DNA of 64,000 nucleotides from Sialis fuliginosa (taxonomy: Eukaryota; Arthropoda; Insecta; Megaloptera; Sialidae), in the NCBI GenBank assembly GCA_961205875.1, contig OY540813.1, forward strand, positions 31,529,001-31,593,000. Reading direction: 5' to 3'. Made by a program: the position numbers and the translations under genes. Position 1 is the first letter of the stretch. Each line of letters begins with the position of its first letter. Under the pieces are notes generated by a model that was given only the letters and a program-made list of their open reading frames with translations, searched no databases and had not been told where the DNA came from. Positions 22,320-53,345 of this stretch are shown piece after piece.

Positions 22320-22980
22320 AATTATACTCATATTTAAGGGGGGGGGGTTATTACTTTGTAAAAAAAATTAACACTTTTTATCGTTTTAAATGATCCCTTA
22401 ACTATTCAAGAATGGTGTACAAATGTCTTATGTGGGGGAATTTTTTTAAAGGGGCCAAAAATGAATTTTCCGAACGAAGTCAGTGTCGTTTTGCGGGTAA
22501 TTCGAGTGCAATCGAATGCAACTTTTAAACTTAAATAGCGTTTTCCTCGAAACCATATTTTTTTAACTGGCTGATTTTGACTTGAAATTTCAGCTGTAGC
22601 TTTACAATAATATTTTCAAATGAATTGGCGGCGTGGGACTTTTTCAATTGATTTAATGTACTACTGGAAAAACGGAGAAACTGTGGTTTCTTAGTCACTT
22701 AACCGATTTGGTACCCGATTTTCGAGAGATTTTTTCGAAGAAAACAAATTTTTCGTTCAAATGAAATTTTTTAAATCAAGGGAACCCTACGCCGTTCATT
22801 TCGTTTTAACGTTTGTTTTAAGAGTCTTTTAAGTTTTTTGTTTCAGATAAAAAATTCCGATCTATAGGAGTACGGCCAGGGAGGTCGTAAAAAATGGATT
22901 TCATTGCGGTAGCTGCAGCGATGCCGTTTTGTTTTTAAATGATGAAAAAAATGTTTTGAATATCTTATATTAGTGTGTAC
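22320..22980. other. Unclassified segment with a hammerhead-family tail
   Basis: About 22440-22950 has intermediate GC and repeat-like style ('ccgaacgaagtcagtgtcg', 'gaattggcggcgtgggac'). At 22661-22701 it contains ACTACTGGAAAAACGGAG through GTCACTTAA, the same tail seen beside hammerhead motifs at 48634-48676 and 51880-51924. No coding domain recognised. Confidence 0.4.
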
Positions 22981-48400: not shown

Positions 48401-48633
48401 TACTTTAAAAATATTCAAGTTATATAGCTAAATATGTATATACAGACAATTTGTCATAACAAAACGTTTTAATAAAGAGAACAGCGACTAAAAAGGCGCA
48501 CCCAGAAAAACGCTAATTAAAAAAGTTTATATTAACTATTGAATTGTCTTTGTTTAGGTATAAGATGCGATTTTTTTGATTTATTTATTTTTGAAGAATA
48601 AAGATTTTGAACATTTTCATCTATGATTTATGA

Positions 48634-48778
48634 CTACTGGAAAAACGGAGAAACTGTGGTTTCTTAGTCACTTAAACTAAAAATATACACCTTAACCACA
48701 ATAAAACAATGTCACTCGACACGTGTTTCGACTTCACAAGAAGTCCTCATCAGGAGCCTTACAGTCTTGGTTAAACCT
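48634..48778 (-). mobile_element. Hammerhead-bearing element fragment, copy 1
   Basis: On the minus strand: hammerhead motif, then 'attgttttattgtggtt', 'aaggtgtatattttt', and the tail 'gtgactaagaaaccacag' ending CTCCGTTTTTCCAGTAGTC. The same order occurs in the inverted copy at 51750-51924. The tail alone occurs at 22661-22701. Hammerhead motifs beside an element end are known from Penelope-like elements and from small non-autonomous retroelements; which class this is cannot be told from a fragment. Confidence 0.6.
48714..48757 (-). ncRNA. Hammerhead-ribozyme-like motif 1
   Basis: Minus strand: CTGATGA (48753-48747), stem II GACTTC/GAAGTC with loop TTGT, GAA (48729-48727), self-complementary stem III ACACGTGT, then C (48718) as the expected cleavage base. 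Stem I pairs CTC-G (48754-48757) with GAG-T (48717-48714). A single G sits between the CUGAUGA box and stem II, which is not canonical and could weaken activity. The loopless stem III suggests activity as a dimer, as described for minimal type I hammerheads in retroelements. Confidence 0.6.
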
Positions 48779-49052
48779 TATATATATACTAAAAGGACTT
48801 ATCTCGCTTCAATGATTCTGACCAATCAACTTGATTATGGGTATCAAATGAAAGGTTTTAACAATTAGAATACGATAAGCTATGTGACGTTATTTTAAAT
48901 CCAATATGGTGGACGCCCCAAGATGGCAAATTACCTTTTTGTTCACAACCCTCTTGATATGGGTATCAAAGGAACGAGCTTTACCTGGTAGTATGCTATT
49001 TAGTTATTTAGTCAGTCAGTAACTTAAAATTTGAATATAAAAATTAATTTTA

Positions 49053-49580
49053 AAAAATCTGCTAAGTAAATGCACAGTGCTTCCTCGTGCTAAATTCAGT
49101 TAATTATTCAACAATTTAAATAAAAACAACATTATATTATATATAATTATATTATAGAAAATGTAATGCTCTACAAAAAATATTCTATAAAATTTTCACG
49201 TAACGTGTCGTTCTTGAGATATCTTGAAAAAATAAATATTTTGGGGTGTCACCCCTCCCCCTTACATACGATTTTGATGATTTTTAAATGGGACTGTACT
49301 CAAGCCAGACCCAACCATCCGACCAAGTTTCAATAATATCGGTTCAGTGGTTCATGAGTTATGCGTGTGACAAGGATTCAGGGGACAAACGGACACACAC
49401 ACGGACGGACGGACGGACGGACGGACGGACAGACAGACAGATACGAAACGAAAAGTGTTTACCTTGACGTAAAACGGATAAATCAATTTAAAATTTTGAA
49501 ATCAGAGAACATTTTTTATGTCTCAATCTGAAACGATCACAAAGTTTCTCGTATCTTCGATATTGCGAGGAAGCAAAATG
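49053..49580 (+). mobile_element. R1 element, copy d (internally deleted)
   Basis: 'ctaagtaaatgcacagtg' with CTTCCTCGTGC at the left and GATATTGCGAGGAAGCAAAA at the right. It lacks much of the left interior. The GACG tract is expanded (49404-49428) and followed by (GACA)n. Confidence 0.82.
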
Positions 49581-49954
49581 TTTTTTAAAAACAAACTTTT
49601 ATTAAAAATGCACTGAAAAGTAAAAAATTAATTTTCAGCTATCACAAAATATTCAGGTTTGTATGACTAATAAAAGTGCAGGTCGCTTAAAGGCAAATGC
49701 ATGGAAAAATATATTGTGTAAAATAAGAAATGAAGTATGAATTGTTAAAAGATATAAAAATATAACTTCAGTGCATTTTTAATAAAAGCTTGATTTATAA
49801 AAAAAAAACATTTTTTATTTATTTTTAATATCGATATGTCGTAAACGGGTGATCCTATTATAAATGAGTAAGTATATTTTTGTTATTTATATTTATGTGT
49901 CCTATAAAAAATCAAACAATAAAGAAAATTATATAAAAATCTATCTAGGCTAAT

Positions 49955-51400: not shown

Positions 51401-51749
51401 TTCTATGTTTTATGTACCTACATACATATTTTATTGTTTGGTGACCTTAAATATAATCGAACATTTTTATAACATCTTTGAGTTATAATTAGAAATTGGA
51501 AAAATAGTTGTTATTTTAAATGAAATAGTTACTATATAGTTGATTTTTTTGCGTAAAATAGTTGGTAAATAGTTATTTTTAATTAAAATAGTTACACATT
51601 TTTTTACTATAATTTTTTTTTTCGATTTAATCGATAAATTAGTGAAGTCAACGTAGTAAAAAGTAGTAAAAAGTGTCAAGTCTGAAATTTTTGGGACAAA
51701 CATGTCAAAATTATTAGGAAATCACAACAAATATATATTATTTAAACAA

Positions 51750-51924
51750 AAAATATACACCTTAACCACACGTGTTTCCACTTTACACCTGATGAGGATT
51801 TCTGTGAAGTCGAAACACGTGTCGAGTGACATTGTTTTATTGTGGTAAAGGTGTACCTATATTTGTATATTTTTAGTTTAAGTGACTAAGAAACCACAGT
51901 TTCTCCGTTTTTCCAGTAGTAAAT
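51750..51924 (+). mobile_element. Hammerhead-bearing element fragment, copy 2, nested in M2
   Basis: Plus-strand order: partial inverted repeat 'acaccttaaccacacgtg', hammerhead motif, 'attgttttattgtggtaa', then 'gtgactaagaaaccacag' and CTCCGTTTTTCCAGTAGTA. This is the inverted equivalent of 48634-48760. Because M2 is split by it, it inserted after M2. Confidence 0.65.
51785..51828 (+). ncRNA. Hammerhead-ribozyme-like motif 2
   Basis: CTGATGA at 51789-51795, extra G, stem II GATTTC/GAAGTC (51797-51802 with 51806-51811, one G-U pair), GAA at 51812-51814, ACACGTGT, then C at 51823. Stem I is weaker than in motif 1: C88-G124, A-A mismatch, C86-G126, A85-T127. Likely a decayed relative of motif 1. 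Confidence 0.5.
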
Positions 51925-53049: not shown

Positions 53050-53345
53050 GATTCTGCAGACTAAAAAATAAGAATAATTGTAAAAATAAAAGTTAAATTC
53101 TCGGGCTGTTGTTCACATTGTCGTATGGTACTACTTGACGTTTCGATTCTCATGTCGGAATCTTCTTCAGAAGTTTTTCTGAAACACTTTATACGACAAC
53201 GTGGAGAGTAGCCCGAAATGTTAGCTCTTATGGACAACAGCCACGAAAGCCTACAGAAGAAAATTGAAACAAGCCTTGGGTTCAACCCTTGAGGTCCACA
53301 CAACCAACTTACCAAGATCGTATGACTATAAGTACTTAAATACTG
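53050..53345 (-). mobile_element. Hammerhead-3 element fragment
   Basis: Minus strand: 'tacttatagtcatacgatc', 'gttggttgtgtggacctcaa', 'gaaagcc..ggctgttgtcc' and the hammerhead motif, then 'acgacaatgtgaacaaca' and 'gcccgagaatttaac'. A 100-codon minus frame (53061-53363) crosses it but looks incidental. A partial relative is at 42955-43035. Confidence 0.55.
53133..53174 (-). ncRNA. Hammerhead-ribozyme-like motif 3
   Basis: Minus strand: CTGAAGA (53170-53164; position 7 is variable in hammerheads), extra A, stem II GATTC/GAATC with an 8-nt loop, GAA (53144-53142), ACGT, then C (53137). Stem I pairs ACTT (53174-53171) with AAGT (53136-53133), four Watson-Crick pairs unlike those of motif 1. Conservation of the core with a different stem I is covariation, the best evidence that the structure matters. 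Confidence 0.6.

Follow-up and report, generated by a model that had tools for sequence, protein, structure and literature searches.

Hammerhead ribozymes of Penelope-like elements (PLEs) have been described as type I cores with very short stem III, located in the pLTR of elements that carry reverse transcriptase (RT) and GIY-YIG domains, and inferred to act as dimers (Cervera and de la Pena 2014; Lunse et al. 2017; both through reviews and, like the other sources cited here, from excerpts). Reviews, PMC7761336 among them, note a weak or missing stem III and suggest that these RNAs may act as double ribozymes, and the excerpt of PMC7761336 calls the role of the hammerhead in PLEs unknown. In Poseidon of Anolis carolinensis (PAc), the hammerhead lies at the junction of pLTR and ORF, tandem copies are transcribed, and in vitro the protein acts on both strands of the target, cutting and extending each (PMC11167929). 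Reverse transcription of this element begins internally, at two points separated by a distance that corresponds to an optional 30-40 bp tail beside a stem loop (PMC11167929). Penelope of the rotifer Adineta vaga forms inverted pLTR pairs with a tail on one partner, a shorter second partner, a palindromic junction and TSDs of 8 to 10 bp (PMC3846280). The host is a different one, and the word hammerhead is absent from that report.

We analyzed a window of 64,000 nucleotides (C5:31529001-31593000) within a 392-Mb genome, and find in it a hammerhead that is a new member of the already known PLE hammerheads. The locus that carries it, copy A (Table 1), is the 5′-truncated 3′ end of a PLE, because it keeps the last 13 codons of the reading frame and because longer copies have the core 3′ of an RT/GIY-YIG frame. 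As in the described examples, the core is of type I, lies in a pLTR and has a short stem III.

Table 1. Features of the window, with the parts of the copy A core in minus-strand order.
Feature	Position	Strand	Basis or remark
Type I hammerhead core, copy A	48714..48757	-	Core boxes read; Rfam RF00163 17.7 bits; genome core-pattern matches
Copy A stem I, 5′ strand GCTC	48757-48754	-	
Copy A core box CTGATGA	48753-48747	-	
Copy A extra G	48746	-	
Copy A stem II, GACTTC, loop TTGT, GAAGTC	48745-48740 (GACTTC), 48735-48730 (GAAGTC)	-	
Copy A box GAA	48729-48727	-	
Copy A stem III, ACACGTGT	48726-48719	-	
Copy A C17	48718	-	Predicted cut between 48718 and 48717
Copy A stem I, 3′ strand GAGT	48717-48714	-	
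End of PLE frame, VDWSESLKRDKSF and stop	48789..48830	-	Translation; nearly the same residues end the L068 and L069 frames
3′ pLTR part after the ribozyme, long tail, ...AGTTTAAGT + GACTAAGAAACCACAGTTTCTCCGTTTTTCCAGTAGT	48633..48713	-	3′ ends of copies are of two kinds
Copy B of the same pLTR, hammerhead core 51789-51823, long tail	51788..51920	+	
Inverted, internally deleted pLTR piece, head to head with copy B	51741..51787	-	Local alignment to reversed element
Copy C, tail-only fragment	22660..22704	-	nhmmer E 2.3e-12; exact tail match
Family 5 hammerhead-like core	53120..53176	-	ACTT, CTGAAGA, A, GATTC...GAATC, GAA, ACGT, C, AAGT; aligned with L105

The core of copy A has CUGANGA, GAAA, a U-H cleavage site and three stems in the order of a type I hammerhead. 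The hammerhead-like fold that a sequence-only reading had placed on the minus strand here is thus borne out, with a complete core and every box present. The four-pair stem I of that reading comprises three Watson-Crick pairs and one G-U pair, and the new 5′ end that it anticipated at minus-strand position 48717 is the same one predicted from C17. Its single unpaired purine between CUGAUGA and stem II is present as the extra G; in this family, hereafter family 1, the unpaired nucleotide may be either G of GG. The description of stem III as a loopless palindrome holds for the self-complementarity only, looplessness being a choice of drawing, and in cis the same letters read AC(ACGU)GU, two pairs closed by a tetraloop. 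This self-complementary stem III is nothing unusual, since two pairs with a tetraloop are the shape described for invertebrate ribozymes and one kind of axolotl ribozyme (PMC7229834) and since the Rfam Hammerhead_1 consensus has a self-complementary stem III layout like that of copy A. In a dimer, stem III of copy A is able to extend to 8 bp. The palindromic loop III hammerhead of Aedes aegypti, compared by description, likewise has a self-complementary stem III with a loop, and its dimer pairing could extend over 10 bp (PMC3088659).

The relation to PLEs is clearest in copies that reach further upstream. From the loci of the DNA search with copy A and of the core-pattern search we oriented 58 distinct copies out of 60, and sequence upstream of the pLTR is common to ten of these, copy A included, of which nine extend past the stop codon. 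The upstream reach is shortest in L049 (37 nt only), and L030 enters the coding sequence by a few codons. This upstream sequence encodes ...SGIYKINCTNCDKSYIGQTRRSINIRFKEH...DWSESLKRDKPF followed by the stop, and a DNA search with it gave identities of at least 93% for all 40 candidates scored among 374. A longer copy holds a 462-aa open frame with an RVT_1 score of 48.4 bits (cut-off 29.6), and a second long frame scores 46.2 bits. GIY-YIG reaches 23.2 bits (cut-off 22.6) in the family copy at C1:1074424-1074642; among three frames scanned directly it scores 17.9 bits (the 462-aa frame) and 18.9 bits, both below 22.6, and is not found in the third. The spacing of frame and core was read in 30 loci (L068-L097), some of which overlap. 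The core starts exactly 54 nt past the last sense codon (51 nt past the stop) in 16 of them and 56 nt past it in L086. Frame is present and core absent in L070, the core follows a frame broken earlier in L085, L088 and L097, and nine loci have no frame by the filter used. The ORF of PAc starts at stem II and runs on (PMC11167929), whereas the frame that opens at the core ATG of family 1 stops after 12 codons.

Family 1 is abundant. Exact matches to the core pattern number 1,132 in the genome, and the reversed pattern has none. With copy A as DNA query, 40 of 1,630 candidates were scored, and each of these covers 117-122 of the 122 nt at an identity of at least 98%, and the 122-nt segment 48754-48633 recurs without a difference at two further places. 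Among the matches listed, at least nine pairs of cores stand head to head, 25-102 bp apart (for example C1:4480023- / 4480098+). The 3′ ends are of two kinds, near AGTTTAAGT or about 37 nt further, near CCAGTAGT, a distance that matches the optional tail of PAc. For the 47 of the 58 oriented copies with a recognized 3′ end, the 22 nt past the end were compared with the 145-nt stretch before the core. Words of at least 9 nt are repeated between these flanks in 19 of 47 copies versus 34 of 920 swapped flanks, and words of at least 10 nt in 16 of 47 versus 12 of 920. Such variable repeats, in copies truncated at the 5′ side but fixed at the 3′ side, argue for insertion by target-primed reverse transcription. 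The PLE marks of inverted or partial-tandem copies, a 30-40 bp tail and short TSDs are found here, the TSD-like words in only 19 of 47 copies. A fold-back DNA transposon (MITE), suggested by copy B and the first inverted pairs, was rejected in view of end repeats of variable length (9-15 nt words), by the 5′ truncation of copies and by 3′ ends that adjoin the RT/GIY-YIG frame. Outside this genome, pattern searches of viral contigs gave no match, and neither did a genome-contig pattern search. An 18-mer gave seven bacterial matches, about the chance number by our own arithmetic; by eye, CTGA stands upstream in one of these and CTGANGA in none.

Within the window, family homology of copy A starts at about 48831, the point of its 5′ truncation, as judged by BLAST of the upstream sequence against L026, L034, L043, L067 and others. 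The flanks of copy A, CATAATCA before about 48831 and CATAAATCA past the tail, resemble an imperfect duplication by eye. Homology between copies A and B spans CCTGATGA to ...CCAGTAGT. A comparison of these two copies alone suggested an element starting exactly at CTGATGA; this was rejected since other copies carry the 5′ strand of stem I, AGTCTGGAACTGTTAGGCTC, a stretch in which copy A has lost about 16 nt and copy B has the inverted piece instead. None of 1000 shuffles aligned to the reversed element as well as this inverted piece does. On folding energies, the piece should lock the ribozyme of copy B in a rival hairpin, by about 22 kcal/mol. The outer 5′ arm of copy A was dropped as a designed helix because its similarity to the inverted element is equalled by 75 of 1000 shuffles with 50 nt and by 364 of 1000 with 100 nt. 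Pfam found nothing over a cut-off in 20 frames of the window. In the optional tail, positions 48649-48664 of the minus strand form a stem loop, AGAAAC-CACA-GTTTCT, which recalls the AC-rich stem loop where the Anolis PLE starts reverse transcription. By eye, a similar flank (GGGACAAACATGTCAAAATTATTAGGAAATCACAACA-like) lies upstream of copy B (51690-51740) and at L008, L014 and L052, and at these four places the PLE fragment seems to be carried inside another repeat.

Hammerhead-like cores occur in five PLE families of the genome. PLE relatives, with identities that include 54, 38, 36 and 33%, emerged from a protein search in which 92 of 1,152 candidates were scored. Eight short 3′ regions were then retrieved, of which L098 and L100 belong to family 1. 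A core lies downstream of the matched frame in L099 and L102 (54%), L101 (38%), L104 (36%) and L105 (33%); that of L105, which lies at the end of the PLE match, overlaps the end of the frame by eye. No core was seen in the 3′ region of L103 (35%), where the end of the frame was not located. We aligned the three window sites with L098, L099, L101, L104 and L105, leaving out L100 and L102 as near-duplicates and L103 for want of a core. The resulting eight rows are partly dependent, with three from family 1 and two from family 5. The CTGA-N-GA and GAAAC boxes are invariant across them, and every row accommodates a U-H site, located by eye for families 3 to 5. Families 1 and 2 agree in core layout; the boxes recur in families 3 to 5, where stem III, placed by eye, is shorter.

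Stem II varies between these families in a compensated manner. RNAalifold, given the eight rows, returned exactly stem II unprompted, with the extra column unpaired and five of the six pairs doubly changed; neither stem I nor stem III was predicted. Stem II cells are paired in 93.8% versus 64.2% of cases in shuffled alignments, and the covariation score is 0.917 versus 0.280, with none of 500 shuffles as high in either measure and all six slid versions of the stem far lower. Two of the five stem II measures are weaker: double-change pairs were matched in 31 of 500 shuffles and further pair types in 25 of 500. With register set by eye, stem II strands pair with their own partners at 29 of 30 positions versus 56 of 112 when partners are swapped, and stem I forms 20 contiguous pairs versus a mean of 9.7 on permutation, a value reached in 8 of 720 permutations. 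The compensatory changes that the sequence-only reading looked for are therefore strong between families in stem II. Its suggestion of a PLE hammerhead is supported both by this covariation across five PLE families and by the longer copies with the core directly 3′ of the RT/GIY-YIG frame.

The extra nucleotide is present in all five families, as T, T, T and A in families 2 to 5. Genome matches to the family 1 stem II pattern number 987 with the extra base and none without it, and those to the family 3 pattern 16 and none. Stem III is ACACGTGT in families 1 and 2 and, by eye, ACGT in families 3 and 4, self-complementary in every case; the longer form is a difference from known PLE hammerheads. 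In family 5, one copy has ACGT and L105 has ACAT, an exception to the palindrome (by eye). One might tentatively propose that PLE hammerheads form a distinct subclass, in which one nucleotide between A9 and stem II is always present and unpaired, stem III is as a rule self-complementary, the design is that of a double ribozyme spanning two paired pLTRs, and most members fall below the Rfam threshold, a proposal that we regard as somewhat unlikely.

The Rfam model Hammerhead_1 (RF00163) has a gathering cut-off of 34 bits, and no copy examined reaches it. Copy B scores 22.2 bits (E 0.004 for 301 nt), copy A 17.7 bits (E 0.13 for 301 nt × 4,227 families) and L098 and L100 17.7 bits each; Rfam gave no Hammerhead match in L099, L101, L102, L104 or L105, from families 2 to 5. 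A covariance-model hit above threshold, the check proposed by the sequence-only reading, was therefore not obtained for the window copies or for seven relatives, the best value being that of copy B, and the Rfam threshold misses the PLE ribozymes examined. Over the whole window no Rfam family reached its cut-off, and copy A is not among the 26 rows of the E-value scan. A whole-genome search with RF00163 gave no matches (73 of 31,351 candidates scored), as did searches of 14 control genomes.

Unconstrained folds of copies A and B lack the hammerhead and favor other structures. The rival fold of copy A is better by 7-8 kcal/mol with 3′ pLTR sequence and by 4-5 kcal/mol with little of it, and that of copy B by the margin given above for its hairpin. 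A control, an artificial hammerhead of consensus sequence, likewise adopts mostly other folds (P 1.3e-4), for which reason nearest-neighbor folding was dropped as a ribozyme test and only the result for copy B is telling. In two-strand folding, the best structure of a minimal 52-nt RNA of copy A is laid out as a double hammerhead, in which stem III has 8 bp and two further pairs form within the core, at −32.3 kcal/mol for the dimer versus 2 × −13.2 kcal/mol; with copy B, or with longer stretches of copy A, other folds win over the double hammerhead.

Taken whole, the explanation that we consider very probable is that copy A is a truncated PLE 3′ end with a pLTR, a type I hammerhead and a long tail, which arose by the following proposed RNA cut and insertion route. 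It draws on a ribozyme after the frame, the copy number, end duplications, head-to-head copies and covariation in stem II, all of which are observed. PLE transcripts would read across pLTRs arranged in tandem or in pairs, and at each pLTR the hammerhead would cut this read-through RNA after C17 (48718). With a stem III of two pairs, cutting would work best in a double hammerhead, formed by two copies of the pLTR that base-pair along the self-complementary ACACGUGU. Reverse transcription primed by the target would then insert the element; it may start from both strands, which would give rise to inverted pairs of 5′-truncated copies. The two 3′ ends and the inverted, 5′-truncated pairs seen here fit the two-start, both-strand scheme of PMC11167929; for inverted pairs, self-priming is favored instead in PMC3846280. 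From its sequence we infer self-cleavage of the copy A hammerhead, a reading against which the short stem I counts. The insertion at copy A is probably inert, and in cis it could cut no more than weakly. With more than 1,000 family core matches, four further covarying families and readable insertion ends, this genome is suited to asking whether the ends of copies or of RNAs coincide with the site of ribozyme cleavage and whether double ribozymes arise from paired pLTRs.

It is also conceivable, though rather improbable, that a real motif of the PLE lineage has kept the hammerhead fold while selection now maintains it for a different function, for example to be bound as RNA by the PLE protein or to place a start codon, with cleavage weak or dependent on protein. 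Such a role is compatible with the PLE identity of copy A. The hammerhead of the Anolis PLE gives no cut without protein and is dispensable for insertion in vitro (PMC11167929), and the family 5 core of the window lies within a 101-aa open frame with an ATG inside the core. However, the boxes are invariant and the U-H site can be placed in all eight rows, which binding alone would not require.

We think it very unlikely that copy A is a small non-autonomous non-LTR retrozyme, an element with short tandem repeats and a type I hammerhead that spreads as circular RNA. Metazoan retrozymes resemble this family in their type I hammerhead, short stem III of two pairs with a tetraloop, low GC and many short copies (PMC7229834), and most of the 58 oriented copies have no PLE coding sequence beside the core. 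Yet the tandem 150-450 bp repeats of retrozymes (PMC7229834) are absent at this site, where there is no tandem array, and among the matches listed copies are dispersed or in inverted pairs. In addition, copy A is one of the nine oriented copies whose sequence continues beyond the stop codon into the PLE frame, and 5′ truncation, the optional tail and inverted pairs are marks of PLEs. The short copies may still move in trans.

Copy A is the sole match in the window to a descriptor requiring CTGANGA, a stem II no shorter than 4 bp and with no more than one extra base (permitted because already observed at copy A), GAAA, a stem III of 2 bp or more, U-H and a stem I of 3 bp or more. For this descriptor 0.002 matches per window are expected, a value obtained by simulating 2,000,000 flanks and scaling to the number of CTGANGA sites in the window, which is 14. 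CTGATGA...GAAAC occurs twice versus 0.17 expected, and the second site, at 51789 (+), is the homologue of copy A and fails the descriptor. Given this expectation and the genomic excess of cores over the reversed pattern, the core of copy A is not due to chance. A fortuitous look-alike in an unrelated repeat, with which the sub-threshold Rfam score and the differing minimum-energy fold would agree, is scarcely credible against that expectation and the recurrence of the motif near the frame end in five PLE families with a compensated stem II.

Several smaller features accompany these elements. The family 5 copy of the window differs from L105 by a double change from C-G to T-A in stem II. Directly upstream of copy A, a TATGGGTATCAAATGAAAGG-like sequence occurs twice, at 48836 and 48958, 122 bp apart. 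Another dispersed repeat occupies 49149-49599, with whole or partial window copies at about 29146, 43101, 35784 and 13230. Elsewhere in the genome, five PLE 3′ coding regions (L089-L093) follow one another in direct order from C10:3223681 to 3253570 at a spacing of about 7.37 kb, apparently as a tandem array of a larger unit.
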